Source: a virus
Length of the DNA stretch: 32,073 nucleotides
Reading direction: 5' to 3' (one strand)
IMG/VR virus record: IMGVR_UViG_3300035698_004441
Location: 1-32,073 of that record
Both the position numbers and the translations under genes were made by a program. Below are positions 5,690 through 30,806 of the stretch, piece after piece. The notes beneath the pieces are model-generated. The model did not search any database. It was given only the letters and a program-made list of their open reading frames with translations, and was not told where the DNA came from. Each line of letters opens with the position of its first letter. Position 1 is the first letter of the stretch.

Positions 5690-5698
5690 GATATATAG
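5690..5698 (+). promoter_or_regulatory. GATATATAG motif, putative late promoter
   Basis: GATATATAG sits 5 nt before the ATG at 5704. The same core recurs at 9214, 12442, 12951 and 27162, always in gaps upstream of genes. It resembles the AT-only T4 late box TATAAATA. The gene it precedes carries a capsid-type leader peptide, which fits late expression. Confidence 0.4.
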
Positions 5699-5703
5699 AT
5701 GGA

Positions 5704-6657
5704 ATGAGATTCCTAAAGACATACAAGTTATTTGAAGGTGGAAACGCTTTACACCTCGCTCGACCTATCAAACAGTCAGAGGTGAGACCGACTATCCAGA
5801 CAATCAAGGACGTTATATTTCCTGCATTGGGTCTTGAAGGATTCGGTGTAGACGTCGTTCAGATCGGAAGTGCAGGTAAGAAAATTGACGATGATGATGT
5901 TTCTGGTGACATTGATCTGGGAATTGCTGTAGATGTCTACGCAGAGAAGCATAACGTCGATCCTAACGAGGTATTAGACCATATCTATGCTACACTACAA
6001 AAAGAATTCCCAGGCTTTGAATCGAGGATGATGAAAGGTCTTGAAGTTGTTAGTCTTGGTTATCCGATCGCTAACCAACCGAGATTAGGATACGTACAAT
6101 TAGATTTCATTCCGGTAAAAGATATGGAATGGGCGAAGTTCATTTACCATGCTCCTGATGCAAGGAAGGGTGAGAGTGCTTATAAGAGTGCACATCGAAA
6201 TTGGTTGTTCTGTGCAATCCTATCCCAGGTGATAGAAGATGAAGAGTTTGACCTTGATGGTAACAAGTTAGGATACCGTGGTTATATGCTCAGATTAAAT
6301 GATGGTCTTTCTAAGATTGAGAAGTCATGGGTCGGTAAGACTAAACTTCTGAAGAATCCTAAGAAAGTTTCAGATGAGCCAGTCACAAAGAATCCAAGAG
6401 AATTCGTCAAGTTCCTTTATGGTAAAGGTGTAAGACCAAACCAGGTGAAAACGTTCGAAGATGCTTATTCTAAGGTGTTAGAGCCAGGTTTTAAGTTTGC
6501 TGATAGGCTCCGAGATATTGAAGAAGAATTGAAACGATTCTTAAAAAGAGTTGACTTACCGATTCCGAAAGAAATATCTAAACGAAGACGTGCTGAAACA
6601 GATGCATCATTACCGAATAAAAGTAATAATGGAGAAGAAGATGTCCAAGACGAATAA
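5704..6657 (+). CDS. nucleotidyltransferase with capsid-targeting-like leader
   Basis: The protein carries the polymerase-beta-type nucleotidyltransferase signature: QIGSAGKK near residue 57, the metal-binding pair in SGDIDLGIAV at about residues 67-76, and a third acidic residue in VQLDFIPVKD. Such enzymes transfer NMP to RNA, protein or small molecules; the substrate is not evident. The C-terminal third is charged and ends in an acidic, Ser/Asn-rich tail. The first residues, MRFLKTYKLFE|GG, resemble the T4 internal-protein leader, with an LFE site suited to gp21-type cleavage. It may be packaged in the head and injected. It overlaps the next gene by 17-29 bp. Confidence 0.72.
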   Translation: MRFLKTYKLFEGGNALHLARPIKQSEVRPTIQTIKDVIFPALGLEGFGVDVVQIGSAGKKIDDDDVSGDIDLGIAVDVYAEKHNVDPNEVLDHIYATLQKEFPGFESRMMKGLEVVSLGYPIANQPRLGYVQLDFIPVKDMEWAKFIYHAPDARKGESAYKSAHRNWLFCAILSQVIEDEEFDLDGNKLGYRGYMLRLNDGLSKIEKSWVGKTKLLKNPKKVSDEPVTKNPREFVKFLYGKGVRPNQVKTFEDAYSKVLEPGFKFADRLRDIEEELKRFLKRVDLPIPKEISKRRRAETDASLPNKSNNGEEDVQDE

Positions 6658-7072
6658 TATGTTCAAAACAGCCATCGAGTTATTCCTGGGCCAATTGGTT
6701 CTGGGCGTAAACGTGGCCCCTGATGGCATAGAATTCATGACAATAAACGGAGAAGTTGGATCAACAGTCCCAAATTATATGGGAAACCTAGATGTACAGG
6801 TGGGAGAAGAAATAGTCTATGAAATAGAGAGCGCATTGATTCCTATTATAGAGAACGGTACCGACCGTAAGATGTTTGAGATGTATGACTACATCAAGGA
6901 GATCGATCAAGAAAAATTACAATACAAATCAAAACTATTTCTGACAATTGTCCAAGGTAGTATTGAGAAAATCCTCTTAACTGATAAACTAGCTTTAGAA
7001 GGGCGAACTATTATTGGTACACAAGAGGTTATATACAACGATGGGAAACGATTCCTAATCAGTCTAAACTAA
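6641..7072 (+). CDS. hypothetical protein (143 aa)
   Basis: The soluble protein starts MSKTNNMFKTAIELFLGQ; an in-frame ATG at 6629 would add MEKK. It is beta-rich in the middle (GVNVAPDGIEFMTING) and ends with a hairpin-like RTIIGTQEVIYNDGKRFLISLN. It overlaps the 3' end of the nucleotidyltransferase gene and lies 13 bp before the ligase fusion, so the three are probably co-transcribed. No family was recognised. Confidence 0.7.
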   Translation: MSKTNNMFKTAIELFLGQLVLGVNVAPDGIEFMTINGEVGSTVPNYMGNLDVQVGEEIVYEIESALIPIIENGTDRKMFEMYDYIKEIDQEKLQYKSKLFLTIVQGSIEKILLTDKLALEGRTIIGTQEVIYNDGKRFLISLN

Positions 7073-7085
7073 TAAACAGAAAGTT

Positions 7086-9026
7086 ATGGCCGGTATAAAA
7101 CACCTGACAGACATTTACAGAGTACAAGGAAAAGAGTTTATCACAAAACTCTTCGATGGCTTTGTTACAGTCAACGAAAAATTGGACGGAAGTGCATTCT
7201 CAGTCGAGAAGAATTTCGTAACCAAAGAGCTTGAATTTTACAAGAGAAACAACAACGTTCCAATATCATTGGTTGATCGAACATTAGCCAGATTCTATGA
7301 GAAGCCAATCGAACATTTCAATAGTCTACGTATTGAGATAAAAGATAAGATGCCACAAGGCTGGAGATTCGGTTTCGAATACCTTCTATCTGAGCGTCCT
7401 CAAGAGATTGCTTACGATCGAATTCCAAAGAATTCGTTGGTTCTATCTTACATACACGTCAGAAATGGTTCTGGTCAAATTATCAGAACGATCCAAGATA
7501 AAGATGATCTAGACAAATGGGGAGACATTCTCCAGGTTGAACGACCACCAATTATATTTCAAGGTGTTCTTAACGATGAGCAGAAGATTCAGATTATGGA
7601 TTTCCTTGATACACCGAGGACAGAGCTAAATCTTAAATTCAAGACTGAATCTTTTATCAAATACATTATATCGGTTCTTAACCCTAAGTTGAGAAAGACC
7701 TTATTGAATGATGATCTTAGTAAGCCTATTGAAGGTGTTGTGTTTAGATTCGGATCCGTTGATCAAGAAGTTGTATTGGCCAAACTAGTCGATCCTATTT
7801 TTCAGGAACTAGCAAAGCAGAAATTATCAACACCGACCGGTGGTAACGATATTTATCATATCACATTGCTTGACATCATGAATTACTTTGATGGTCTTAA
7901 CCTTAACAAGTTCAAGCCAATGGGTCGTTCATATGATGAGCGTTATATCAATTTCATATCCAAAGCATTTAATGATCTCGTTGCAGATCATGGAGAGGAT
8001 TATGAAGATGTTGATTTCAATGAACCAGAATATCTTAAGAAACCAGAATTCGATTTGAACGCTGAGTTTATTGATGACCAAGTTACCTTGAGTCATATTG
8101 ATCGTGCAGATGGTCTTAAGAAACTATTCAAGATCATGCTTTCAGCTTTCAAGAACAAGCGACGTAAAGTAACTGGAATATTCACAAAGGGTGTCATAGA
8201 ACAGTTCAATCAAACTGTTGATATGATTAACAGACACTTGATGCAAAATTTACGAATCGTAGAAAGTGAAGTTCCATTATTTGGTGACTTCCTAGATCGA
8301 AGAGGTCGAGGTGCAGAAATTGCAGAAACCGAGGAAGAAGATTCGGAAGAGGAAGAACTATATGCTGAAGACGAACCTAAAGACGAACGTGAATTTGATG
8401 CTGAGAAGTTCAGAGAAAAAATGGACAGTCTTGAAGGTGGTGAAGAAAAAGACGAAGGCAAGAAGAAAAGAAAGGCCGGTAAAAAGGTCAATATGATTGT
8501 TGGTCGTTTCCAACCATTCCACAATGGTCACATGGAGATGATCGAAGAGATCTATTCAGTAAACAAGTATCCAGTAATGATTGTTGCGGTTCACCCGGGA
8601 CATAACAAATCTGGTAAGAGTCCATTATCATTAACTACAATGCGAACCATGCTCGAGAATCTTCAACAAGATGGTAATGGTAAGATTTGTGGACACCGTA
8701 TTATCGGTCGTGGATTCATTGGAGACATTATAGAAGCGGTCAGACCAGATTTCGAGCCTGTTCTATGGGGTGTTGGACCAGACAGAATCATTGGTTATCA
8801 GAAACAACTTGAGCATAATTACATGCGAAAGAATGAATTAAATCTTGATGAGCGATTTACTGTTATGGAAACCAAACGATACATGAGTGGTACGGATGTT
8901 CGAGAGAATATCTTCAATGATTCATTCGGTGCATTCAAAGCACAAGTTCCTAAAAGCGTTCAAACCATATTTCCATTACTCCGTAATGACATCTTGAAGT
9001 ATGATCTACCAGCTAAAGAAGAGTAA
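7086..9026 (+). CDS. nucleic-acid ligase fused to NMN adenylyltransferase (NadM/NadR type)
   Basis: Two enzymes are joined in 646 residues. Residues 1 to about 400 hold a covalent nucleotidyltransferase (ligase) domain: motif I EKLDGS with the AMP-accepting Lys32, a motif III-like GWRFGFEYLL, motif IV IEGVVFRFG and a motif V-like LAKLVDP. It is more likely an RNA ligase than a replicative DNA ligase, but this is not certain. An acidic then lysine-rich linker spans about 405-465. From residue 466 follows an NMN adenylyltransferase domain with GRFQPFHNGH (HxGH ATP site) and SGTDVREN (SGTxVR), which makes NAD+ from NMN and ATP. It would complete the NAD+ route begun by the PRPP-synthetase homologue and NadV at 28-32 kb. 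No frame break is visible. Confidence 0.85.
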   Translation: MAGIKHLTDIYRVQGKEFITKLFDGFVTVNEKLDGSAFSVEKNFVTKELEFYKRNNNVPISLVDRTLARFYEKPIEHFNSLRIEIKDKMPQGWRFGFEYLLSERPQEIAYDRIPKNSLVLSYIHVRNGSGQIIRTIQDKDDLDKWGDILQVERPPIIFQGVLNDEQKIQIMDFLDTPRTELNLKFKTESFIKYIISVLNPKLRKTLLNDDLSKPIEGVVFRFGSVDQEVVLAKLVDPIFQELAKQKLSTPTGGNDIYHITLLDIMNYFDGLNLNKFKPMGRSYDERYINFISKAFNDLVADHGEDYEDVDFNEPEYLKKPEFDLNAEFIDDQVTLSHIDRADGLKKLFKIMLSAFKNKRRKVTGIFTKGVIEQFNQTVDMINRHLMQNLRIVESEVPLFGDFLDRRGRGAEIAETEEEDSEEEELYAEDEPKDEREFDAEKFREKMDSLEGGEEKDEGKKKRKAGKKVNMIVGRFQPFHNGHMEMIEEIYSVNKYPVMIVAVHPGHNKSGKSPLSLTTMRTMLENLQQDGNGKICGHRIIGRGFIGDIIEAVRPDFEPVLWGVGPDRIIGYQKQLEHNYMRKNELNLDERFTVMETKRYMSGTDVRENIFNDSFGAFKAQVPKSVQTIFPLLRNDILKYDLPAKEE

Positions 9027-9030
9027 TGAT

Positions 9031-9076
9031 ACCGAAAGAGGAAATTTCATTTATCCTCTAACCGTTCTATTTCGGG
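9031..9076 (+). other. nested inverted repeat, possible terminator or processing hairpin
   Basis: CCGAAA (9032-9037) pairs with TTTCGG (9070-9075), and inside it GAGGA (9038-9042) pairs with TCCTC (9054-9058). There is no T-run, so RNA processing or mRNA 3'-end protection is as likely as termination. Confidence 0.45.
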
Positions 9077-9119
9077 TGTTGTATCAAACTTTCTACCCCA
9101 CTTTAAATATTGATCCTTG

Positions 9120-9212
9120 ATGATTGAAACTCTATTTACACCAGAGATGATCGAGCAACAACCGGATATGGAATTCAATTTCTTAAAATACCTGAAGAAC
9201 AGAGAATTTTAA
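9120..9212 (+). CDS. small protein of unknown function (30 aa)
   Basis: A complete 30-codon frame (MIETLFTPEMIEQQPDMEF... ending KNREF) lies alone in the gap after the ligase fusion. Its composition is normal for this phage, but a frame this short could occur by chance. Confidence 0.4.
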   Translation: MIETLFTPEMIEQQPDMEFNFLKYLKNREF

Positions 9213-9213
9213 C

Positions 9214-9223
9214 GATATATAAG
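9214..9223 (+). promoter_or_regulatory. GATATATAAG motif, putative late promoter
   Basis: It is the same core as at 5690, 12442, 12951 and 27162. It heads the run of capsid-leader genes that starts at 9264, with a 13-codon frame (9226-9267, MKRIKSTKSTKAS) in between. Confidence 0.4.
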
Positions 9224-9225
9224 GT

Positions 9226-9267
9226 ATGAAAAGAATTAAATCTACTAAATCTACTAAAGCATCATGA
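9226..9267 (+). CDS. 13-codon leader-like ORF
   Basis: MKRIKSTKSTKAS ends in a TGA that overlaps the ATG of the next gene (ATGA). It may act only to couple ribosomes to the downstream gene; it may also be chance. Confidence 0.25.
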   Translation: MKRIKSTKSTKAS

Positions 9268-9575
9268 GTAACGTGAAGAAATTTAATGAACTTTTCGAAG
9301 GTCAATATGGTATGGAGAAATTTGATTTGGAATCTTCCAACCGAACTGTAATTGGTGTAGAGTGGAGAACAGGGAGAACAAACATTGGATTTGTTGCTGT
9401 TGCCTTACATGATTCACACGAGTGGACAGTTTATATCTGTGGCGTTCCTGGAAAAGATGAAGTATCTGACGTGAAATTGGTTGCCGATTATGGTACTCGA
9501 TTATCTGAAGAAGAAGGAACAGCATTCTTCCCACATTTGGAAGCACCCGAAAAATATACATACAAAGGACGATGA
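9264..9575 (+). CDS. small protein with capsid-targeting-like leader (103 aa)
   Basis: The first 12 residues, MSNVKKFNELFE|G, have alternating basic and aromatic/leucine residues and an LFE site, like the leader that directs T4 internal proteins into the prohead before gp21 cleavage. The remaining ~90 residues look like a small beta-rich fold (TVIGVEWRTGRTNIGFVAVAL, EWTVYICGVPG). No family was recognised. It overlaps the next gene by ATGA, which has a similar leader. A head-packaged, injected protein is inferred. Confidence 0.7.
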   Translation: MSNVKKFNELFEGQYGMEKFDLESSNRTVIGVEWRTGRTNIGFVAVALHDSHEWTVYICGVPGKDEVSDVKLVADYGTRLSEEEGTAFFPHLEAPEKYTYKGR

Positions 9576-10087
9576 GCAGAATACACGATTTTAAGAACTT
9601 CCTTAATGAGATGAACGGATATGGTGAAGAACCATTCTTTTACATCCAAGATGGAGATCTACATAATTACATGTTCAAGATTGAAGATGGTAAGAACGTA
9701 GAGCGTGGTATGGTTATCTCAATAGGTAACTTCAGTAGGTTTACACAACCCGCCGAAGCTAAGAATGCTTATGGCGTTATCACAATTGTAGAAATGAGTC
9801 CGGAGGCACTGGATCAAGCCGTAGCAGATGAAGGTAAGTTCGAGACTAACGAGTCCCGTATTGATGCCGATGATGCTGCTATGGAGAAGATCATGCACAC
9901 ATTAACAGAAGTCATCAACGATTATCTACAGAAATCACCTAAGGTGAACAAGTTCTATGATGAGATGCAAGCAACGTTACATTCTGCAAATTATGCAGCG
10001 AGCTTTAAAGGATCTACAGAAGAATGGCCAGGAGACTGGAAATTCCAAGAGATTGAAAACGGTAAATTGAATTTAGTATCAAAATGA
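9572..10087 (+). CDS. protein with capsid-targeting-like leader (171 aa)
   Basis: The leader MSRIHDFKNFLNE|M matches the pattern of its neighbours, with an LNE site. The mature part of about 158 residues is acidic, with FFYIQDGDLHNYMFKIEDGK near the start and a helical C-terminal region (AAMEKIMHTLTEVINDYLQK). No known domain was recognised. Both ends overlap neighbours by ATGA, so translation is coupled to the genes at 9264 and 10084. Confidence 0.7.
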   Translation: MSRIHDFKNFLNEMNGYGEEPFFYIQDGDLHNYMFKIEDGKNVERGMVISIGNFSRFTQPAEAKNAYGVITIVEMSPEALDQAVADEGKFETNESRIDADDAAMEKIMHTLTEVINDYLQKSPKVNKFYDEMQATLHSANYAASFKGSTEEWPGDWKFQEIENGKLNLVSK

Positions 10088-10506
10088 AAAACATAAAATT
10101 ATTTGAAGACTTCGACATTAACGAAGGATCATACGAAGACTTCCTTACAAACAATGCTGATGAGATCAAGCAAGCAATTGATGAGATCAAGCAAGCTAGT
10201 GAAAAACTGAAGGACCTTAGTCCAGAGGAATACGAAAAAATTGTGAAAGCTGCTTTTGCCCCACATGAAGATACTTATGATCGTACGATCACAGAATTTG
10301 TAGATTCAAGTTTGGGTAACCCACATGGTATAGATGCAAGAGACATTGCAGATACAGCGATCCGAAATGAAAATCAAACTGGTACAGAAGCCATTATGAT
10401 TCTTGATGCCATCTCAACTATTACAAGTAGCATCATTCACCCTAGAACAGGAACAGGACGACCTAACAGACCAAGAAGAGGTCCGGGTTTCATTCCAACT
10501 AAATAA
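10084..10506 (+). CDS. protein with capsid-targeting-like leader (140 aa)
   Basis: The leader MKNIKLFEDFDINE|G ends in an INE site. Next comes a helical region with a tandem duplication (DEIKQAIDEIKQAS), encoded by near-identical 21-bp repeats at about 10162-10203. The C-terminus is basic and Pro/Gly-rich (GRPNRPRRGPGF), which could bind nucleic acid. T4 internal proteins are likewise small, charged and DNA-associated. Function is unknown. Confidence 0.7.
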   Translation: MKNIKLFEDFDINEGSYEDFLTNNADEIKQAIDEIKQASEKLKDLSPEEYEKIVKAAFAPHEDTYDRTITEFVDSSLGNPHGIDARDIADTAIRNENQTGTEAIMILDAISTITSSIIHPRTGTGRPNRPRRGPGFIPTK

Positions 10507-10510
10507 TATA

Positions 10511-11167
10511 ATGTCTGCCAAGACTAGTAAATATAAAGTTCCAAAGAATGTGGTTAAGATCCCAGACGGGGATACTGGCTACAATCTGGTCAAATCAAAG
10601 TATAACCGCTTTATTTGGACGTGGAACAATGCGCCTAAGAATGAGGACAATGACTATAAGCCTAAGCACATCAAACATCTTGATGAATCCGAGGAGATAG
10701 AAGGTGGTATTGCTGATGGTAAGAGCTTACAAGATCTATCCGATGAGCATGAAGTAACAGTTGAGCATATTGAAAGCCAACTGTACAAGGGTATCAAAGT
10801 CGAGATGGAACATACAACAAGTATGTCTACTGCTGAGGAAATTGCCATGGACCATATATTTGAAGATCCATATTATTATGATAAACTTGCAACTATTGAT
10901 TCGCACGAAGAGGAAGGAGCAAACGATCTAGAGCTGGAGGATGAAAATACTGATGAAGCATCAGGATGGGACGTAGATATGGGAACTACTTCTGGTATGG
11001 GACAAGCTGCAGGATCAGCAAAAGGAACAGTCGGTTATCGTAGTGGTCCGTTATCAAATGGAAAAATGTTGCCTACAGATGCTCACGAAGACCCTGATGA
11101 AAGGGAACAAAGAAAGAAGAGTAACATACAACGATTCAAAGATTTTAAACCTAAAAATAAAAAATGA
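10511..11167 (+). CDS. hypothetical protein with DUF5661-like segment
   Basis: I take the start at ATG 10511 (MSAKTSKYKVPKNVVKIPDG), 4 bp after the preceding gene, because an upstream frame extension overlaps that gene. The middle contains GIKVEMEHTTSMSTAEEIAM and DHIFEDPYYYDKL, which resembles the 'EHT...A.EIA.DHL.EDP.YY..L' pattern I associate with DUF5661 phage proteins; this is from memory. Just before it, DGKSLQDLSDEHEVTVEHI looks like a small helix-turn-helix. The tail is acidic, then Gly-rich, then basic. The stop overlaps the next gene (ATGA). Function is unknown. Confidence 0.7.
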   Translation: MSAKTSKYKVPKNVVKIPDGDTGYNLVKSKYNRFIWTWNNAPKNEDNDYKPKHIKHLDESEEIEGGIADGKSLQDLSDEHEVTVEHIESQLYKGIKVEMEHTTSMSTAEEIAMDHIFEDPYYYDKLATIDSHEEEGANDLELEDENTDEASGWDVDMGTTSGMGQAAGSAKGTVGYRSGPLSNGKMLPTDAHEDPDEREQRKKSNIQRFKDFKPKNKK

Positions 11168-11607
11168 TGATTGCAATGATTGGCGTAAACGTAGTAATTG
11201 GTGTTGTATGTGTAGTAATGGTGTTAGTGATAGCAGCATTTATATGGAAGTATAACCAAGACAAGACAAAAACTGCTGGAGAAGTAGTTGATTCTTTAAT
11301 TGATGATGTTGAAGATGCGGTTGAAGAACTGGCAGAAGACATCAAAGAAGAAGTCGAGGATGTGGTTGACGATATTAAAGAGGAAGCCGTTGAAGTATAC
11401 GATAACTTTCAAGACTTAATCACAGACAAAGCTGTATTGGTTCTTATTGAATCGCTTAGCCGTATTAAGACGAAGACTCGTGTTTGGTTCATGGCAAATG
11501 GTAAGACTAAGGTTGAAGCCGATGCGATCATGGCAGACATCAGTAAGCCGTTCGATGCAAAGGGTATGGATTTAGAATCCGCCCCATTCAAATTCACAAA
11601 AAAATAA
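11164..11607 (+). CDS. membrane-anchored coiled-coil-like protein
   Basis: One N-terminal membrane helix (residues ~3-27, rich in V, I, M and A) is followed by a strongly acidic helical stretch (VEDAVEELAEDIKEEVEDVV) of heptad-like character. A basic C-terminal region follows (SRIKTKTRVWFMANGKTKVE). The orientation is probably N-out, C-in. It is a 147-residue protein with start ATGATG at 11164. No family was recognised. It could be an inner-membrane host-modifying protein. Confidence 0.65.
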   Translation: MMIAMIGVNVVIGVVCVVMVLVIAAFIWKYNQDKTKTAGEVVDSLIDDVEDAVEELAEDIKEEVEDVVDDIKEEAVEVYDNFQDLITDKAVLVLIESLSRIKTKTRVWFMANGKTKVEADAIMADISKPFDAKGMDLESAPFKFTKK

Positions 11608-12003
11608 GTGAAACATTTAGAAACTTTAAACGAAAAATTCGGCGATATTAAAGGATTTGGTTCTAGTGGTAATTTAGAATTCAAAACCACTTTAGATGAC
11701 ATCATTGTTGATGTGGCTAATAGTCCATTTGAAGATGCTGATTTTAGACAGAATGGTTTCATAGAATGGGAACTTGGTCTCAACCTTAATAGAGCAGGGA
11801 TTGAGTGGTTCGGTGAGTCAGTAAGACGTGTTTTGCTTTCGGTTAGGGTAAATGAAGAAGATACAGAGTTTGAAATCGATAGTAATATCGAAACAGAGAA
11901 ACTCAATATTACCAAATCGTGTTATGTAACAAAGATTGATATTGACATGCATGATAGTACGGATCATACCGATTGGGATACGGTAGTTTATATTGGTAAT
12001 TAG
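11608..12003 (+). CDS. hypothetical protein with GTG start
   Basis: The frame opens directly after the previous stop with GTG: (M)KHLETLNEKFGDIKGFG. The start resembles the capsid leaders (LNE), though it is shorter and weaker than those at 9264-10084. The protein is acidic, beta-rich and soluble (131 residues). Its stop TAG lies at the junction of a perfect 17-bp tandem duplication, so the present C-terminus may be recent. Function is unknown. Confidence 0.65.
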   Translation: MKHLETLNEKFGDIKGFGSSGNLEFKTTLDDIIVDVANSPFEDADFRQNGFIEWELGLNLNRAGIEWFGESVRRVLLSVRVNEEDTEFEIDSNIETEKLNITKSCYVTKIDIDMHDSTDHTDWDTVVYIGN

Positions 12004-12051: not shown

Positions 12052-12450
12052 ATGTACCCGTAACTTTCAAAAGACTTTTTCACGGATCTAAGAGATCGCC
12101 TAATGCTTATCGTAAGCGTGAGGTTATCTATTATACAGATCACCCAGAAGTTGCTGAGACTTATGGTGATGTTTATGTTGTTGGTTCCAGGAAATACTGA
12201 TGGGCTAATTATTGGAAACATCATGGATACTAAGTTTGGTGAAGTTCCGTTACATGTAGATCGTGACTGGCGTGGTTTACCAATATTTGATTTTGAAGAT
12301 CAGGCCGATGAATATTACGACCATCTCGATTACTTCACAAGTACCTTAGTTATTGTTCCAAATATGCATCCAAATATGCATCCATTCAACAAAAATTTCC
12401 ACGTTAGGATAGAAGATGCCGAAACTTTTTCTAAATTTGTTGATATATAA
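12052..12450 (+). pseudogene. frame-broken ADP-ribosyltransferase-like (ART/MuF-type) gene
   Basis: After the promoter-like element the ATG at 12052 hits a stop after three codons. The neighbouring frame then reads clean protein: VTFKRLFHGSKRSP, EVIYYTDHPEVAETYGDVYVV, ending at TGA 12198-12200. A third segment continues in the ATG's frame with PGNTDGLIIGNIMDTKF and a TLVIVPN strand to 12450. Together these resemble small phage ART-type domains: 'FHG', 'Y.TD.PEVA..YG', then 'DG.II.NI.D' and a final strand. One missing C in CCC (12057-12059) and one extra base near 12183-12198 would restore a single ORF of about 132 codons. A 12-bp in-frame duplication (PNMHPNMH) lies near 12358-12381. Confidence 0.5.
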
Positions 12451-12465: not shown

Positions 12466-12913
12466 GGGGCCGAATGGCATTTGACATACGGTAGTTCATA
12501 TTGAGTAAGCATGTGGTGTCCGCCTTGAGACACGTTAATAAAGAGGGGCAATGCTATAACAGGCAACATTGTTAACAGGGCCGTTGAGGCCACTCTTAAT
12601 GTCGTACGATCTATCGCTCCAGTAGCGATGGGTTATGAAGCTGGAGAGCTTCGCCTAGCGGCCTAAGAGCTGAGGACCGTCGGACCAAGTTCGGCACCTC
12701 GTAGAAAAAAACTCAAAGCCGTCGAGGTCGATACCAACGGGATATAAAACGGAACAGTTCGGAGTATCACATATACTTCGATAGTTGTGGGGCATGAAGC
12801 ATAAGTCCTTGTGATAAATTGTGATAATTTGCAGGTGTAAGAAAAACCTGATAAACATGTAGAAAACCGATTTGATACAGTATTGGACGAGGGTTCGAAA
12901 CCCTCCGGCTCCA
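12466..12913 (+). ncRNA. ssrA: transfer-messenger RNA (tmRNA)
   Basis: tmRNA with SmpB rescues stalled ribosomes and tags the nascent chain for proteolysis. The 5' GGGGCCG (12466-12472) pairs over 7 bp with CGGCTCC (12906-12912), with one G-U pair; A12913 is the discriminator. A canonical T arm GAGGG-TTCGAAA-CCCTC lies at 12889-12905. The 5' part keeps tmRNA-like TTGACATACGG and AAGCATGTGGTG blocks; CATGT can pair with ACATG near 12854. A tag frame runs to TAA 12664-12666, encoding GYEAGELRLAA from 12631, or two codons more (A-M) from 12625. It ends in the typical LAA. The 3' CCA is only partly encoded (ACCG). The length of about 448 nt is above the E. coli 363. Confidence 0.88.
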
Positions 12914-12950
12914 CCGGAGCTGTTTTGTACCTTTTTTCTAAATATATTTC

Positions 12951-12960
12951 GATATATAAA
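12951..12960 (+). promoter_or_regulatory. GATATATAAA motif upstream of GIY-YIG gene
   Basis: The same core as the other late-like motifs lies 15 nt before the ATG at 12976, in the gap between tmRNA and the endonuclease gene. The gap also has a T-rich stretch (12931-12938) that could end the tmRNA transcript. Confidence 0.35.
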
Positions 12961-12975
12961 GAAAAAAGGTATACG

Positions 12976-13572
12976 ATGGCGAGAAAACCCAAAAAATACC
13001 ATTACATTTATAAAACAACTTGTAAAGTAAATGGTAAGTATTATGTAGGAATGCATAGTACAGATAATTTAGATGATGGATATTTAGGTTCGGGTACATA
13101 TCTTTGGCGTGTTATTAACAAATATGGCAAAGAAAACTTTGATGTGGAGATATTAGAATACTTAAATACACGAAATGAATTAAAAGAAAGAGAGGCGGAA
13201 CTAGTCAATGAACAATTTATCGGAGATTTATTATGTATGAATTTGAAACCCGGTGGCTATGGCGGGTTTAATTCTAAAGAACATCAAATTAAGTGTTCAA
13301 CAGCAGGAAATGTTGGTTATGTTAACAAATTAAAAACCGATCCAAACTTTAAGATTAAGGTTAGCGCCAACACATCAAGCAGAAATCGAAAAATGTGGGA
13401 AGATCCAGAATATAGAGAATATATGATGGAACATTGTGGTAACTCAACAACCGGAAAAATTTGCATAAATAATAAAGTGCAAAATAAATTTATCCTACCA
13501 ACAGAGTTAGAAGAAATGGTAAATCTCGGATGGAAACGAGGTAGAAAAACAAAAGAATCAACGAAAAAATGA
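12976..13572 (+). CDS. GIY-YIG homing endonuclease
   Basis: The N-terminus has the GIY-YIG nuclease pattern: YHYIYKTTCKVNGKYYVGMH (residues ~8-27), then GYLGSGTYLWRVINKYGKENF with a catalytic-type Arg. The acidic residue is likely in EAELVNEQF. The middle has GGYGGFN and NUMOD3-like segments, and the C-terminus KICINNKVQNKFILPTELE resembles a DNA-binding NUMOD module. I choose ATG 12976 because the longer frame would start inside the tmRNA. The gene stands free just downstream of the tmRNA, as homing genes often do beside RNA genes. The stop overlaps the next gene (ATGA). Confidence 0.85.
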   Translation: MARKPKKYHYIYKTTCKVNGKYYVGMHSTDNLDDGYLGSGTYLWRVINKYGKENFDVEILEYLNTRNELKEREAELVNEQFIGDLLCMNLKPGGYGGFNSKEHQIKCSTAGNVGYVNKLKTDPNFKIKVSANTSSRNRKMWEDPEYREYMMEHCGNSTTGKICINNKVQNKFILPTELEEMVNLGWKRGRKTKESTKK

Positions 13573-16091: not shown

Positions 16092-16358
16092 ATGAAAGAA
16101 ACAACGCTAGTATCCGCCCCAGTAATTACTCTTAAGAATGTTAAAACTTTTGTTGGCCGTGAAGGTCACGGATTGAATGCAGACGTTTATGTCGATGGTG
16201 TGAAAACCGCATTTTGTCGTGATGATGCTTCAGGTGGCGAAGTTGATTATGATGTTTACAACCTAGAAGACTACGATGGAGTTTTTGAGCTTCACGCAAA
16301 CCACATCAGAGCATTGAGAAATGCTGGAATCACAGTACCAAAAGAATTTGAATCATGA
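16092..16358 (+). CDS. small hypothetical protein (88 aa)
   Basis: MKETTLVSAPVITLKNVKTF starts a beta-rich protein with NADVYVDGVKTAFCRDDASGG, a strand-turn-strand followed by an acidic loop, and a helical end (HANHIRALRNAGITVPKEF). It overlaps the pentapeptide-repeat gene by ATGA, which links the two in expression. No family was recognised. Confidence 0.65.
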   Translation: MKETTLVSAPVITLKNVKTFVGREGHGLNADVYVDGVKTAFCRDDASGGEVDYDVYNLEDYDGVFELHANHIRALRNAGITVPKEFES

Positions 16359-16960
16359 AAACTAAAATCGAAATCAAATCAGTATTCGGAAAAGTACTTT
16401 TCGAGCACGAAACCGAAAACAACACACTATCGAAAACGGTCAGTGAAGCCGTAAAAAGCTCTGCTGACCTTAGCTCTGCTGACCTTAACTATGCTAACCT
16501 TCGCTATGCTGACCTTCGCTCTGCTAACCTTCGCTATGCTAACCTTAGCTCTGCTGACCTTCGCTATGCTAACCTTCGCTATGCTAACCTTAGCTATGCT
16601 AACCTTCGCTATGCTAACCTTAGCTCTGCTGACCTTAGCTCTGCTGACCTTAACTATGCTAACCTTCGCTATGCTAACCTTAGCTCTGCTGACCTTCGCT
16701 ATGCTAACCTTCGCTATGCTAACCTTAGCTCTGCTGACCTTCGCTATGCTAAGACTGACAAGAGGTACATTCAAGTCTCTTGCATTGGCTCATCTAAGCG
16801 TATGACAACCTACTGTTTTGAAGATGATATTGTAACGTGTGGGTGCTTTAAAGGAACACTAGAATCGTTCAAGAAACAGGTTGAGAGCACTCATAAAAAC
16901 AACGACCAGTACTTGAAAGAATACCTAGGACTTATTAACTACCTAAAATCACTAAAATGA
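16355..16960 (+). CDS. pentapeptide-repeat protein
   Basis: Residues 37-131 are nineteen uninterrupted A(D/N)Lxx pentapeptides (ADLSS, ADLNY, ANLRY, ADLRS...), which fold as a right-handed square beta helix. Some family members (Qnr, MfpA) mimic DNA and protect or inhibit gyrase; others have unknown roles. A short N-terminal domain (MKTKIEIKSVFGKVLFEHET) precedes the helix, and the C-terminal ~65 residues (DKRYIQVSCIGSSKRMTTYC...) form a separate part with cysteines. The repeat DNA is nearly identical from unit to unit, so length may vary between strains. A gyrase role is only a possibility. Confidence 0.88.
   Translation: MKTKIEIKSVFGKVLFEHETENNTLSKTVSEAVKSSADLSSADLNYANLRYADLRSANLRYANLSSADLRYANLRYANLSYANLRYANLSSADLSSADLNYANLRYANLSSADLRYANLRYANLSSADLRYAKTDKRYIQVSCIGSSKRMTTYCFEDDIVTCGCFKGTLESFKKQVESTHKNNDQYLKEYLGLINYLKSLK
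16463..16747 (+). repeat. 15-bp coding repeats in the pentapeptide gene
   Basis: Nineteen 15-bp units, mostly variants of CTTAGCTCTGCTGAC and CTTCGCTATGCTAAC, use almost no synonymous variation. This suggests recent expansion or recombination. Other frames stay open across the array, creating spurious ORFs on both strands. Confidence 0.9.
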
Positions 16961-17351: not shown

Positions 17352-17522
17352 ATGAGATGTAAAAAACAACATTTCGCAATTGATAAATTGGAGAACATAT
17401 CACTTTGTGGTATTGAACTCATTGCTACATCGGCAGAATTTGATCTTGATGAAGAAAAACTGATTTCAGTTAATTGTAAGAAATGTATTAAAGAGGCAAA
17501 GAAACATGGCAAAGAGAATTAG
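17352..17522 (+). CDS. small Cys-rich, zinc-ribbon-like protein
   Basis: MRCKKQHFAIDKLENISLCG and SVNCKKCIKEAKKHGKEN provide C-x4-H, C and C-x2-C groupings that could bind a zinc ion. The frame overlaps the start of rtcB by 17 bp. The same frame is open upstream to 17314 (KIYSLNSDEVGG), and the ATG just upstream at 17312 is one base out of frame behind another A5 run. The full gene may therefore start MKKIYSLNSDEVGG. Function is unknown. Confidence 0.5.
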   Translation: MRCKKQHFAIDKLENISLCGIELIATSAEFDLDEEKLISVNCKKCIKEAKKHGKEN

Positions 17523-18933
17523 AGGAAATCACTTATTGGATTTAGGATACCTTCCAGGTAGACCAGTTGGCGTAGCAATCGATGCAACTAAGAAGTTGTT
17601 GAAAAGAAACACAGTTGAGGAAGTCCTAGGTATGCTTAAGGAGGTCCTAGACGATCCCGATGCATTTTTAGAGCATGAATACCTATCTAAGGTAGCGGAA
17701 GCCATTGTAGAAGAGAAACGACCTAGAGTTGATCTACTCAGAGATGAGCCTTTACCATATGCAATCTACGGTCTTGAAGGTATCGAAAAAGGTGCTCGAG
17801 ATCAGATGGATGTTGCTATGTCATTACCTGTTTCTAGGAAAGGTGCTTTGATGCCGGATGCTCACGCTGGATATGGTTTACCAATCGGCGGAGTTCTAGC
17901 ATGTGAGAACGCAATCATTCCTTATGGTGTGGGTGTTGACATTGGATGTAGAATGTGCTTGTCCATATACGATATGGGTGACGATCGATATGTCGAAAGA
18001 AATGTTCAGACCCTTAAGAAGGCTTTGGCCGACAACACAAGGTTCGGTATGATGGGTGTTCACGAAGATCCAGTTGAACATGAAATATTTGATCGACCAA
18101 TCTTTGATGAGATCAATATACTGAAGCAGTTGAAGGATAAGGCCTGGAGACAGATCGGAACTTCTGGTGGAGGTAATCACTTCGTTGAGTTCGGTATGAT
18201 CGAGATACTTGAAGAGTCTGACCTTGGTCTTGCTCCAGGTAACTATGTTGCTGTATTGTCTCACTCAGGCTCAAGAGGTTTTGGTGCTAAGATTGCTGAT
18301 CACTATACCCGAATGGCAAAGAAGTCGAGAACTCTTCCTAGACATGCAGGACACCTTGCATGGTTGGATATGGATTCTGAAGGCGGACAGGAATATTGGA
18401 TTGCCATGAATTTGGCTTTGGATTATGCTTCGGCATGTCACCACGATATTCACAGACGTCTTAAGAAGTATCTTGGTAAGGAGCCTTTGGCGACTGTTGA
18501 GAACCACCACAACTTTGCTGCTAAGGAGATCCACGATGGTGTTGAATATATTGTCCACCGTAAAGGTGCGACTCCAGCATCAGATGGTGAGATGGGAATC
18601 ATTCCAGGAACGATGGCCGACTTTGGTTATCTCGTGAGTGGACTTGGTGATGAAAATTCACTTAGATCTGCATCTCACGGTGCTGGCCGAGCTATGTCGA
18701 GAACTGTTGCCAAAAACACATTCTCTGGTAAGTATGCTAAGGACTACTTAAAAGAGCGAGGAATTACATTACTTGGAGGAGGTGTCGATGAACATCCTGA
18801 AGCATACAAGAAGATCGATGAAGTGATGGCACACCAAACTGATCTTGTTAAACCAATTGGTAGATTTCACCCGAAAGTTGTTCGCATGGCGGACGATGAT
18901 CCTGATGCTAAGAAACCATGGGAGAAGAAATAG
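17506..18933 (+). CDS. rtcB: RNA ligase RtcB
   Basis: RtcB joins RNA 2',3'-cyclic phosphate or 3'-phosphate ends to 5'-OH ends using GTP and Mn2+, and so repairs tRNAs or rRNA cut by ribotoxins. Family signatures are clear: MPDAHAGYGLPIGGVLA, the metal-binding cysteine in VDIGCRM, GTSGGGNHFVEFG, SHSGSRGFG, ENHHNFAA and HRKGATPA. The guanylate-accepting His lies in ASHGAGRAMSR. The length of 475 residues is normal and the frame intact. The start at 17506 overlaps the small Cys-rich gene. In a phage its likely role is to reverse anticodon-nuclease defences. No RtcA or archease was seen here. The C-terminus KKPWEKK overlaps the next gene's start. Confidence 0.95.
   Translation: MAKRIRGNHLLDLGYLPGRPVGVAIDATKKLLKRNTVEEVLGMLKEVLDDPDAFLEHEYLSKVAEAIVEEKRPRVDLLRDEPLPYAIYGLEGIEKGARDQMDVAMSLPVSRKGALMPDAHAGYGLPIGGVLACENAIIPYGVGVDIGCRMCLSIYDMGDDRYVERNVQTLKKALADNTRFGMMGVHEDPVEHEIFDRPIFDEINILKQLKDKAWRQIGTSGGGNHFVEFGMIEILEESDLGLAPGNYVAVLSHSGSRGFGAKIADHYTRMAKKSRTLPRHAGHLAWLDMDSEGGQEYWIAMNLALDYASACHHDIHRRLKKYLGKEPLATVENHHNFAAKEIHDGVEYIVHRKGATPASDGEMGIIPGTMADFGYLVSGLGDENSLRSASHGAGRAMSRTVAKNTFSGKYAKDYLKERGITLLGGGVDEHPEAYKKIDEVMAHQTDLVKPIGRFHPKVVRMADDDPDAKKPWEKK
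18911..18932 (+). repeat. 22-bp direct repeat at a gene junction, copy 1
   Basis: A 22-bp sequence starting AGAAACCATGGGAGAAG recurs exactly at 19051-19072. Each copy encodes the KPWEKK C-terminus of one gene and, in another frame, the MGEEI start of the next. Confidence 0.9.
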
Positions 18934-22302: not shown

Positions 22303-22758
22303 ATGGACATAGGAAGAAACAATAAAGGAGTAGCTAGGAGGTTGAGTAATTTCACCGCCCGACCTTTTATATTTGATGGTGTAGAGTGTGCTTCTATGGA
22401 AGGATTGCTACAAGGTTTCAAATTTGAGAACCCTTTAATTCAAGAACATGTCTGTACTCTTGTTGGTATCAAAGCCAAGCGAAGAGGTAGTAAAAGAAAC
22501 AAGGCATGGAAAGGTGGTCAAACACTTTGGTGGAAGGGCAAACCTTACGGTAGAAAATCCAACGAGTATCAAGACTTATTGGATGAAGCATATGAAGCAC
22601 TTGGTACCAACGAGCATTTCAAGAAAGACCTTTTGTCAACAGGCAAAGCGGTTTTCACACATGCCATTGGTAACAACAAGAAATCCGAGACCGTATTGAC
22701 CGAAGCAGAATTCTGTAGAAGACTTACATGGTTACGAATGAAATTCCTTCAAGAATGA
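22303..22758 (+). CDS. NADAR (YbiA-like) family protein
   Basis: The opening LSNFTARPFIFDGVECASME followed by GLLQGFKFEN is the NADAR/YbiA signature ('LSNF...PF..DG..y.s.E...Q..Kf'). The C-terminal helices (EAYEALGTNEHFKKDLLSTG, THAIGNNKKSETVLTEAEF) fit the fold, and 151 residues is a normal length. Some NADAR proteins remove ADP-ribose from modified guanine, acting as antidotes to DarT-type toxins; others cleave N-glycosidic bonds in riboflavin intermediates. In a phage that also encodes NAD+ synthesis genes, reversing ADP-ribosylation of phage DNA is the attractive role. It has its own promoter-like element and overlaps the STAS-like gene. Confidence 0.8.
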   Translation: MDIGRNNKGVARRLSNFTARPFIFDGVECASMEGLLQGFKFENPLIQEHVCTLVGIKAKRRGSKRNKAWKGGQTLWWKGKPYGRKSNEYQDLLDEAYEALGTNEHFKKDLLSTGKAVFTHAIGNNKKSETVLTEAEFCRRLTWLRMKFLQE

Positions 22759-27161: not shown

Positions 27162-27170
27162 GATATATAG
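27162..27170 (+). promoter_or_regulatory. GATATATAG motif, putative late promoter
   Basis: The motif lies 18 nt before ATG 27189. The sequence GGATATATAGAT is shared with the copy at 5689-5700. Confidence 0.4.
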
Positions 27171-27188: not shown

Positions 27189-27404
27189 ATGGCCCTTAAA
27201 AAATTTGAAAAATTCGGAGAAAAAATCGATGAATTCGATTATCACAATCCAGACGATTTTGAAAAGGTGGATGGTATAGATGTCAGTCTAACCAATATGC
27301 GGAAGGCCATTAAAATTGATATAGGTGGGACAAACATTGAGCTCAATAAAGAACAAGCATCTGAAGTGATGTCTGCTATAGCCAATGCAATCAAAATAAT
27401 GTAA
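27189..27404 (+). CDS. small hypothetical protein (71 aa)
   Basis: MALKKFEKFGEKIDEFDYHN begins with a Lys/Phe-rich segment that loosely recalls the capsid leaders but lacks a clean [L/I]xE site. The rest contains IDIGGTNIELNKEQASEVMS. It follows a GATATATAG motif and its TAA overlaps the next ATG. Function is unknown. Confidence 0.6.
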   Translation: MALKKFEKFGEKIDEFDYHNPDDFEKVDGIDVSLTNMRKAIKIDIGGTNIELNKEQASEVMSAIANAIKIM

Positions 27405-27766: not shown

Positions 27767-28156
27767 ATGATTTTAACGGTCTGGTATACGATAACATATA
27801 GTGCTCTCATAATTTTTGGGTGTGTTATGGTTTTCGGAGTCATGGCTGTTCTGCTTGTTGACTCTCGTAATTCTCGTGTTAAACGACAAACAGAGACACA
27901 ACAAAAAGAGATTCTCCAAGCTCGAAGGCTTGATGCAGAATTACATACATTACGATGGCAAGATACACTTAGACAAGATCTTGAAGCACCAGAAATAATC
28001 AGCAAAGAAGATCTAGATACCAAGCTCAAAAAGTTAGAGTTTTACGATGTAAAGTTAGTGGATGCTCTCGATAAAGAGGATTACGAATCTGCTGCCGTAT
28101 TAAGAGATGAGATTGAGAAATTGAAGCAAGAACTAAATACAGAAAAAGATGCTTAA
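27767..28156 (+). CDS. membrane-anchored protein with a UVR motif
   Basis: The N-terminal membrane helix (residues ~9-31, YSALIIFGCVMVFGVMAVLL) is followed by a basic, then helical cytoplasmic part. The last ~35 residues (KLVDALDKEDYESAAVLRDE, IEKLKQEL) match the UVR motif of UvrB, UvrC and McsA-type proteins, a helical hairpin for protein-protein contact. A membrane-tethered UVR could bind a host repair or protease partner. It overlaps the prs-like gene by 8 bp. Confidence 0.65.
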   Translation: MILTVWYTITYSALIIFGCVMVFGVMAVLLVDSRNSRVKRQTETQQKEILQARRLDAELHTLRWQDTLRQDLEAPEIISKEDLDTKLKKLEFYDVKLVDALDKEDYESAAVLRDEIEKLKQELNTEKDA

Positions 28157-29120
28157 CGAATCGACACTTAGGGTTAACATGGGTGTACTTCCTCCAGCCT
28201 ATTGGGGAAAACAAGAAACAGCTTTAACCTATCAACAAAGTATCTTTCCTGGTGGAGAGGTGTTTGTCAGATTAAACCATCCTGAACAAGTTGATGAAAA
28301 AGATATTATTATCAGTGTTGCTCTTTTAGATTCAGCTGATATATTGAAGCTGATTATGATGGTGAATGCTCTGAGAGCTGCTGGAGCTTCGAAAATCTAT
28401 CTCTATATGCCATACGTTCCTTATGCCCGACAAGATCGAGTATGTACAGAAGGAGAAGCAAATGGTATCCAAGCATTCGGTGACCTGATCAATGATATGA
28501 ACTTTACAAAAGTGTTCGTACTTGATCCACATTCAAACGTTACTGAAACGGCTATCCGAAATATTCGCAGCACTACGAATCATCATTTCGTCCGAAGAGT
28601 TGCCGTTGATCTTTATAGTAAAGGATACAATAAAGAAAACACAATCTTTGTTTCACCAGATGCCGGAGCCAAGAGTAAGATGAAAAATTTGATCTCCTGG
28701 TTATATCCAATTTTTGGTTTCACAAATGTCTTTGGTGATAAGGTCAGAGATCAAGCAACAACAGAAATTCTTTATACATCAGTAGACGATCCTGATGATA
28801 TGATCGCAGGTAAGACTTGTGTTGTCGTGGATGATATTTGTGACGGAGGTCGAACATTCATTGAACTCGCGAAAGTTCTTTTGGAAAAAGGTGCATCTGA
28901 AGTTATACTGATTGTAACCTTTGGAATATTCAGTCAGGGCTTATCTCCATTTAAAGGACTCGTGACTAAGATTTATTCTACAGACGTTTTAAGCAAACCT
29001 GAAAGTATTCCTGGTGTTGAATACTTTCGTATGCCGATCACTATTTTGAAAGATCCAAAAACATGTGATCCAATTCCACCTTCTGCACTTATGCCAGCAG
29101 GAACTATTGGCACACTATAA
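28149..29120 (+). CDS. prs: ribose-phosphate pyrophosphokinase homologue (Prs, or ADP-ribose-acting Adps type)
   Basis: PRPP synthetase adds pyrophosphate from ATP to ribose 5-phosphate. The family signatures are FPGGEVFVRL (residue ~37), YMPYVPYARQDR (~85-96) and the ribose-phosphate loop VVVDDICDGGRTF (~225-237). The length of 323 residues is normal. The stretch DAGAKSKM replaces the usual 'D.GG..RA', a divergence also to be expected in a homologue with another substrate. Next to nadV, it supplies PRPP for NMN synthesis, or as an Adps-type enzyme it would pyrophosphorylate ADP-ribose as in the phage NARP1 pathway. Sequence reading alone cannot separate the two. Confidence 0.85.
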   Translation: MLNESTLRVNMGVLPPAYWGKQETALTYQQSIFPGGEVFVRLNHPEQVDEKDIIISVALLDSADILKLIMMVNALRAAGASKIYLYMPYVPYARQDRVCTEGEANGIQAFGDLINDMNFTKVFVLDPHSNVTETAIRNIRSTTNHHFVRRVAVDLYSKGYNKENTIFVSPDAGAKSKMKNLISWLYPIFGFTNVFGDKVRDQATTEILYTSVDDPDDMIAGKTCVVVDDICDGGRTFIELAKVLLEKGASEVILIVTFGIFSQGLSPFKGLVTKIYSTDVLSKPESIPGVEYFRMPITILKDPKTCDPIPPSALMPAGTIGTL

Positions 29121-29978: not shown

Positions 29979-30806
29979 ATGAACTTTTTAGAACTTTATT
30001 GGACAGACGTTTATAAGACAGGACACAAACCAATGCTTCCACCTGGAAGTACATTGATGTTCTCAAACTCAACACCTCGAAGCGGTCGGCTATCGAACGT
30101 TCCTGGATCAGAAGGAATTATCGTTGCCGGTGCTCAGATGATGATGAGGAAATTACAGGATGATTGGTACAACAATTTCTTTATGAGACCAGTGTCTGAG
30201 ATCGAACAATTCGGTAAAGACATCACAGAGATGCTTATGTTGGACAAACCATATGATGTAAGTCATATGATTCAGTTCCATGCATTGGGTTATCTTCCGT
30301 TAGAGGTTCGTGCCATTGAAGAAGGTACATTCCTTCCTTATAAGATTCCAATGACCACGATTGTTAATACTCATCCAATTGATGGGACAATCGTTGATTG
30401 GTTGGTGAACTACCTGGAGTCACCTAATTCTGCTGAATCTTGGTTAACGCCAACTTCTGCCACTACTGCGTTTGCTTACAAGAAGAATGGTATGGCGAAC
30501 ATCAAAAAGACTGACCCAGAGAACATGTGGTTCTTGGATTACAAATACCATGATTTCTCAATGAGAGGAATGGGTGGTAAATCTGCAATTGTAAATTCGG
30601 GTCTTGGTTTTGCAATGGTAAGCAAAGGATCAGATTCACTTCCTGTTATCCCAGCAGCAAGAAAGTATTATGACGAAGATGGGGTTCCGATCTTTTCTGT
30701 TATTGCATCAGAGCACGCTATTATGTGTGCCAATATTGGTGTATTTGGTGAACGTATTAAGCAAGGCCTGGAAGATGTTCTCGTTTCAGAATATAATTCT
30801 TTTTAA
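29979..30806 (+). CDS. nadV: nicotinamide phosphoribosyltransferase NadV, N-terminal part (interrupted gene)
   Basis: NadV converts nicotinamide and PRPP to NMN. This frame holds the N-terminal half: FLELYWTDVYKTGHKPMLPP, then LDYKYHDFSMRGMGG (~residue 190) and the catalytic-His block VIASEHAIMC (~243-250). It then leaves homology and stops (SEYNSF) because an 866-bp insertion begins at about 30795. Joining at the flanking CAGAATAT repeats restores SEY-ATIKKMLNDFPTGIISLV in frame with the part at 31625. The RPDSGDP phosphate-binding block lies only in the second part, so the two pieces must assemble or the insert must be removed for activity. Namat-type homologues use ADP-ribose pyrophosphate instead. 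Confidence 0.87.
   Translation: MNFLELYWTDVYKTGHKPMLPPGSTLMFSNSTPRSGRLSNVPGSEGIIVAGAQMMMRKLQDDWYNNFFMRPVSEIEQFGKDITEMLMLDKPYDVSHMIQFHALGYLPLEVRAIEEGTFLPYKIPMTTIVNTHPIDGTIVDWLVNYLESPNSAESWLTPTSATTAFAYKKNGMANIKKTDPENMWFLDYKYHDFSMRGMGGKSAIVNSGLGFAMVSKGSDSLPVIPAARKYYDEDGVPIFSVIASEHAIMCANIGVFGERIKQGLEDVLVSEYNSF

Follow-up and report, generated by a model that had tools for sequence, protein, structure and literature searches.

The subject of this study is a 32,073-base virus fragment (IMG/VR record IMGVR_UViG_3300035698_004441; hereafter the window), in which a nucleotidyltransferase and several other proteins share a short N-terminal leader that ends in a glutamate. The window carries T4-type replication genes: a gp32-like gene at 169 and a gp61-like primase gene at 1220, both assigned by reading the window sequence, and a UvsW-like helicase gene at 4132 (PHROG DNA helicase, 6e-71). 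The leadered genes are located downstream of the helicase gene. An earlier note on this DNA had placed five such open reading frames (ORFs) at 5704, 9264, 9572, 10084, and 11608, and all five are present there with the N-termini that it gave.

Leadered genes downstream of the UvsW-like helicase

The genes considered here all lie on the plus strand. The leader of the nucleotidyltransferase, MRFLKTYKLFE (5704..5736), precedes the mature enzyme (5737..6657), with the predicted cut after E11. The 9264 protein begins with MSNVKKFNELFE↓G (the arrow marks the predicted cut; leader 9264..9299, mature part 9300..9575), the 9572 protein with MSRIHDFKNFLNE↓M (9572..9610 and 9611..10087), and the 10084 protein with MKNIKLFEDFDINE↓G (10084..10125 and 10126..10506). 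These four fit the general form [ILV]xx[FY]xx[FYL]..[hydrophobic]xE↓. The N-terminus at 11608, MKHLETLNE↓K (GTG start; 11608..11634, mature part 11635..12003), had been called weaker, and it is indeed weak and fails the fixed rule given below. A further leader-like ORF, MALKKFEKFGEKIDE↓F (27189..27404), fits the leader form and, at 71 amino acids, lies below the 80-amino-acid counting limit. The description of the five proteins as otherwise unrelated holds, since their mature parts are mutually dissimilar (best cross-match E 0.31). A motif scan found the promoter-like motif GATATATA upstream of the nucleotidyltransferase gene (5690..5697), the 9264 gene (9214..9221), and the 27189 ORF (27162..27169).

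The window is syntenic with a large contig, IMGVR_UViG_3300035183_000733 (G002; 54% identity in the best segment). The G002 orthologue of the 9264 protein (mature parts E 3e-17) has the core of the leader and fails the site rule. The 10084 protein shares its first ten residues with a G002 protein at the like place, their mature parts being unrelated (E 0.91), while the counterpart of the 11608 protein at the like place in G002 has a clear leader, MRIKRFTELNE↓K, and a weakly matching mature part (E 0.005). No named function was assigned to the mature parts of the 9264, 10084, and 11608 proteins, and the fold search with the 9572 protein gave no convincing match (best E 7e-3).

That one of the proteins is a nucleotidyltransferase, as the note had also stated, is backed by its Pol X-like fold and its conserved G-S...D-x-D...D residues, and not by any family match. 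G55, S56, D69, D71, and D134 are invariant in 48/48 orthologues, and the predicted model was superimposed on Pol X/Pol beta structures with a Z of ~9.5 (root mean square deviation 3.5 over 166 residues to a Pol X structure). No Pfam, PHROG, or PDB sequence-family match was found, Foldseek gave nothing at E under 0.001 (best CutA, 1.4e-3), and a PADLOC cyclase model matched weakly (E 3e-4, 18.3 bits). The domain is predicted with confidence, with a disordered leader end (residues 1-12 with a predicted local distance difference test score, pLDDT, under 50); in the 9572 protein, residues 1-6 are likewise under 50. A distant homologue was found in 15 records of Lak phages (27-30% identity), and in the four records read (B2, C1, A2, and A1) it starts with MSGMAIKGS, without a leader. 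Because this start aligns by eye with the ↓GGAAIK of the leadered enzyme, the leaderless enzyme begins at the predicted cut.

Conservation and frequency of the leader

Relatives of this region were collected with the nucleotidyltransferase, which gave one locus, and then with a two-sequence alignment, which gave the best 80 of 85 loci. The leader was scored by a fixed rule, a core [ILVM]xx[FYW]xx[FYWLIM] starting at residue 2-5 followed by a site [LIVMFYW]xE. Core plus site are kept in 36/48 nonredundant nucleotidyltransferase orthologues, in 36/44 of the 9572 type (the core alone in 42/44), and in 33/40 of a third leadered family found in locus L001. Neighbours at the same loci carry the pattern rarely or never (gp32 0/40, UvsW 0/33, ligase 0/38, ORF6641 0/14, primase 1/46, DUF5661-type 1/38). 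E11-G12-G13 of the nucleotidyltransferase is invariant in 48/48 orthologues, and a looser test detects [FY]xx[FYWL] in the 14 residues preceding E↓GG in each of the 12 orthologues that fail the rule. In the 9572 type, E13 is among the 17 columns invariant in the 37/37 aligned orthologues (of 44), despite a variable length before it; across the full set of 44, 2 to 11 residues separate the aromatic pair from the glutamate. The core and the cut site are therefore separable parts of the leader.

The residues around the cut are biased as well, at positions not selected by the rule. Among 115 leader sites, P1' is G/A/S/N in 76, vs 2093/8445 other hydrophobic-x-E places, and P2 is N or F in 73, vs 818/8445 elsewhere; the F at P2 is partly due to the core.

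The rule was set after viewing examples and was then used unchanged on genomes not involved in making it (the related contigs G011 and G005, crAss001, and KVP40). Internal segments and shuffled N-termini served as controls, with 1000 draws for the window, G002, and a further related contig, G001. The scored set in the window comprised the 35 genes of 80 amino acids or more, of which four match; the internal-segment means are 0.11 and 0.10 (max 2 in 1000 draws), and shuffled N-termini reach means of 0.34 and 0.36 (max 3). The rule is matched by 21/350 genes in G002 and 33/284 in G001 (14 families after merging paralogues), and none of 1000 internal or shuffled draws was as high. In G011, 23/375 genes match vs an internal mean of 2.5 (max 8), and in G005, where the count covers 400 of 482 kilobases (kb), 38/466 vs 3.2 (max 11). 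The note had proposed searching the rest of the genome for the same leader; it recurs in the window at 27189, and 21-38 genes carry it in each of these four large contigs.

Elsewhere, the rule is matched in crAss001 by 0/87 genes, in T4 by 1/187, and in KVP40 by 4/279. The T4 value understates T4, because the known T4 leaders use Met1 as the first core residue; with Met1 allowed as the core start, T4 gives 9/187 vs a mean of 2.2 (max 8), the known leaders among the nine being IPII and IPIII only. A de novo search for N-terminal motifs also recovered the leader, at >=10 bits in 64/266 N-termini of G001, part of this signal being due to paralogous families, and in 27/342 of G002; in each contig internal segments gave 0 and C-termini 2.

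Several variants were tried and rejected. A permissive regular expression that allowed many start choices failed to separate the window or G002 from controls (40 genes in G002 vs a mean of 31.4, max 42) and was dropped, and core offsets to 9 weakened the separation. Copies of the core at C-termini are not enriched genome-wide (G002, 12 families vs a mean of 10.6; G001, 14 vs 9.6, with 72/1000 draws as high). Such a copy ends the window protein at 10511 (NIQRFKDFKPKNKK) and 9/38 DUF5661-type orthologues; primase C-termini also carry the core (22/46), and no meaning is claimed for the C-terminal copies. As a side observation, DUF5661-type proteins (window 10511-11167; L117:14201-14623; L048) have a C-terminal FxxF-like core in some phages (the window, L048) and an N-terminal leader in others (G002, L048).

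Upstream motif and the S77 protease-scaffold protein

The sequence ATATATA within 60 bases upstream is more frequent before genes with the core than before other genes in G001 (29/47 vs 17/237), G002 (11/32 vs 37/318), G011 (25/44 vs 48/331), and G005 (10/53 vs 35/413), and the excess survives merging by family in G001 and G002. A scan of ten motif-bearing G002 genes gave virion-family matches for five (protease, portal, tail sheath, tail fibre, and baseplate); the protease-scaffold gene described below is preceded by the motif, and the G002 capsid gene is not. The motif may be a late promoter. The window has six GATATATA sites, three of them upstream of leadered ORFs (5690, 9214, and 27162) and one upstream of a phage-encoded transfer-messenger RNA (tmRNA; 12466-12916, Rfam 81.3 bits, ARAGORN tag VGHEA), the site at 12442-12449 being 17-24 bases upstream of it. 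A GIY-YIG endonuclease ORF (12883-13572) overlaps the 3' end of the tmRNA.

The note had also proposed looking for a gp21-like protease. None lies within the window, and an S77 (gp21-type) protease domain was found in 15/18 large relatives, 14 of them above the curated cut-off; in the same search, T4 and KVP40 were positive and crAss001 was negative. In all 15, four of which are identical in sequence, the S77 domain opens a long ORF (L093-L107; G002 111219-113207), in the middle of which 11-14 tandem repeats of the type NISYSEYLAENLDK, similar to YSEYLAE↓N, form a scaffold-like region. Nearly all repeats, with few exceptions, carry hydrophobic-A/G-E↓N/K/S. A Gp23-type capsid gene (E 9e-42) adjoins this ORF in G002.

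The repeats and the leaders have a register in common. The seven-residue pattern aromatic-x-x-aromatic-hydrophobic-x-E is present in 12, 12, and 13 copies in the protease-scaffold proteins of G002, G011, and G005, respectively; no other protein of these contigs has more than 1, 1, and 5 copies. N-termini are likewise enriched in the pattern (G002 6 vs 2.1 expected, G011 10 vs 1.8, G005 24 vs 4.0, G001 7 vs 1.5; crAss001 0 vs 0.3), and T4 IPII/IPIII carry it too (YQEFIAE); YxxYLAE repeats were not found in T4 gp22. We tentatively suggest, at somewhat less than even confidence, that the leader is one scaffold repeat that has become detached, such that proteins with one repeat might co-assemble with the scaffold, be freed by the same protease, and reach the next host. 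If true, this would be a universal plug-in address that lets a single virion carry some 15 to 40 different proteins. How T4-type targeting peptides are recognised, long an open question, would then have a testable molecular explanation in such mimicry.

Interpretation of the leaders and their cargo

We consider that these short N-termini are probably prohead-targeting propeptides of the T4 capsid-targeting sequence (CTS) kind, a system expanded in this phage group, and that the mature proteins may be injected. What was computed here is the leader with its conservation and boundary, the protease of the relatives, and the shared upstream motif; together these strongly suggest packaging and cleavage and moderately suggest injection, so that we rate targeting and cutting higher than injection. 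We infer the following course. The amphipathic core [ILV]xx[FY]xx[FYL] would bind the protein to the scaffold core while the head is growing; once the shell has closed, the gp21-type S77 protease would cleave past the glutamate of [LIVF]xE↓[S/A/G/N]; and the mature protein would be retained in the head and enter the next host along with the DNA. Unrelated cargo genes would thus bear the same detachable address, many of them with the promoter-like motif of virion genes. The capsid-targeting reading of the earlier note is well supported by sequence in this respect (core and site, S77 in relatives, the invariant glutamate, and the shared motif), and the effector role that it attached to the proteins is best kept as a conjecture.

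The resemblance to T4 is close. In T4 IPIII, the first ten residues suffice for packaging, and mutants assign targeting to residues 4 and 7 and processing to residues 8 and 10 (PMC9026906, in part); the leaders share both features. The N-terminus of IPII/IPIII is MKTYQEFIAE↓A. As in the gp21-cut CTS of internal proteins (IPs) I, II, and III and of Alt, the leaders are N-terminal elements of 9-20 residues on unrelated proteins, with an aromatic pair three apart and hydrophobic-x-E (PMC9026906, in part); both the cut site and the targeting residues three apart were found in the leaders, the latter not at 11608. The longer spacer of IPI resembles that of the 9572-type proteins. Unlike T4 leaders, those described here usually add a hydrophobic residue three before the aromatic pair instead of the start methionine, P2 is mostly N or F, and the cargo is different, with 14 to 38 families per genome in place of four named proteins. 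The protease also differs, gp21 and gp22 being two proteins in T4, with gp22 lacking YxxYLAE repeats, whereas one ORF with 11-14 repeats is found here; alike are the S77 domain and, in G002, the adjoining Gp23-type capsid gene. The leaders are therefore a variant of the T4 CTS and not a plain member, on account of more cargo families, the fused repeat-bearing protease-scaffold, and the N/F-E site. No family named internal protein or Alt is among the Pfam/PHROG matches of the window proteins, a direct comparison not having been made. The head propeptides of SPN3US and phiKZ are also removed after E by a diverged gp21-type prohead protease (PMC5694885 and PMC10052503, both in part); unlike the leaders, they are often >100 residues, with a short one only on gp45 (PMC5694885, in part). 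Searches of the open-licence PMC literature listed no report of such a leader expansion or of a repeat-bearing protease-scaffold fusion in this phage group.

Several observations weigh against this interpretation. About 2-3 chance matches are expected per large genome, and one was identified in G011 (RNase HII). The upstream motif precedes the nucleotidyltransferase gene in 2/48 orthologues and the 9572 gene in 15/44, and it also precedes leaderless genes (the 37/318 of G002); the nucleotidyltransferase orthologues mostly sit behind an L001-type leadered gene, where the motif is present in 38/40. No S77 match was found in 3/18 relatives, which are fragments, and no protease or capsid gene in the 32-kb window, likewise a fragment. 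Lak phages have an S77 protease and the nucleotidyltransferase but no leader, and packaging of this enzyme is therefore not universal. Finally, the cell-wall domains of some leadered proteins are as compatible with a role in entry or in the tail as with injection.

Two other accounts of the leaders can be weighed against these data. If the leaders were a by-product of A/T-rich, easily opened gene starts (a start bias in hosts without Shine-Dalgarno sites), which would favour K, N, I, L, and F close to the start, they would have no targeting role. Gene starts are indeed A/T-rich in many cases, and no strong Shine-Dalgarno sequence was seen by eye, no search having been aimed at such sites; yet shuffled N-termini of equal composition fall short of the counts, the glutamate of the cut site is invariant across orthologues, control genes from these loci do not show the pattern, there is a bias at P1' and P2, and the leader boundary matches the start of leaderless homologues, which leaves this account very improbable. 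We also think it quite unlikely that the leader addresses another structure (tail, membrane, or replication compartment), with its E site cut by another protease or uncut. A ClpP-type protease gene near the head genes of G002 would suit this explanation, but the S77-scaffold fusions of G002, G011, and G005 repeat the seven-residue register 12-13 times, with no other protein there exceeding 5 copies, and the experimentally defined T4 CTS has the same spacing (PMC9026906, in part).

The nature of the cargo bears on a further alternative, in which the leaders are real and S77-cut but the cargo serves mostly the head and DNA entry (core proteins, murein breaching, DNA handling) and not takeover or anti-defence. 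No named domain was found in most of the leadered proteins scanned. Leaders occur on CHAP, SLT, and PG-binding proteins in G011 and on a LysM protein in G001, AAA-like and polymerase-beta-like cargo is found (a polymerase-beta-thumb protein in G005), and the T4 prohead core likewise contains gp67, gp68, and IPs (PMC9026906, in part). Against it, the leadered proteins of G002 include an ART-PolyVal protein beside the nucleotidyltransferase (48.7 bits, start uncertain), another ART-PolyVal protein with GNAT, separate Nudix, UPF0227, and DUF5661 proteins, and a 2H protein (27.7 bits, cut-off 27; the Acb1 model, at 26.1, is just under its cut-off); ART-PolyVal, GNAT, Nudix, and 2H/Acb1-like proteins suit effectors, and the T4 cargo known to act in the host includes Alt and IPI (PMC9026906, in part). 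We regard this alternative as unlikely on balance, though by no means negligible. The claim of the note that the proteins are injected host-takeover or anti-defence effectors is consistent with the ART, GNAT, Nudix, and 2H/Acb1-like proteins, and the CHAP, SLT, PG-binding, and LysM proteins resemble enzymes or binders of the cell wall; the claim stays conjectural.

Head-packaged ARTs, Nudix, and 2H proteins are of the same effector classes as those found here with leaders, and their packaging is inferred in PMC9503650 (in part) from MuF/portal fusions, neighbourhood, and T4-like context; the terms propeptide, targeting sequence, and prohead are absent from its main text. The cargo classes are therefore not new, their head packaging being already predicted there, and relative to that text the leader as a cargo list is the new part. 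Identifying the proteins that a phage carries in its head and brings into the cell first usually requires working proteome by proteome. Should the leader prove to be a cargo address, N-termini alone would reveal the early effectors of a large, mostly uncultured phage group, as a list of 14 to 38 families per large contig, many without a known domain.

For the nucleotidyltransferase, the most likely role, held with low confidence, is early nucleotide transfer, in end or tRNA repair beside the neighbouring RNA-ligase-like/adenylyltransferase fusion or in modification of a host target. This neighbour (ORF 7086-9026), which adjoins the nucleotidyltransferase in the loci examined, combines an RNA-ligase-like part (Pfam below cut-off, E 0.008) with a cytidylyltransferase-like part (E 5e-10), and core plus site is absent from 38/38 of these proteins. 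We guess that the host belongs to the Bacteroidota, because the only annotated relatives of the enzyme found are those of Lak phages of Prevotella.

Other observations concern leadered proteins of the relatives. G001 has a large leadered paralogous family ending in [E/D]LFSGFDELGLF (76411-82810, 87529-103986, 112196-114335, and 192859-193824), and a related motif, LISGFEDLGI, is located close to the N-terminus in other leadered proteins; it has 33 matches in G001 and none in the window, and occurs in 0 genes of G011 and 1 of G005. A leadered 222-amino-acid protein of G005 (L194:4615-5283) has a sub-threshold match to Pfam PF07737, a toxin-type metallopeptidase family (23.1 bits, cut-off 27.4). 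The window also encodes RtcB (17506-18933), a T4 gp30.3-type protein (22303-22758), and a phosphoribosyl pyrophosphate synthetase-like protein (28149-29120). An ORF that by eye resembles nicotinamide phosphoribosyltransferase (29979-30806) is cut short beside an opposite-strand NUMOD3 ORF (30757-31569, minus strand) and is possibly interrupted by an endonuclease element. The protein encoded at 16355-16960 consists largely, by eye, of NLRYADLSSA-type pentapeptide repeats.

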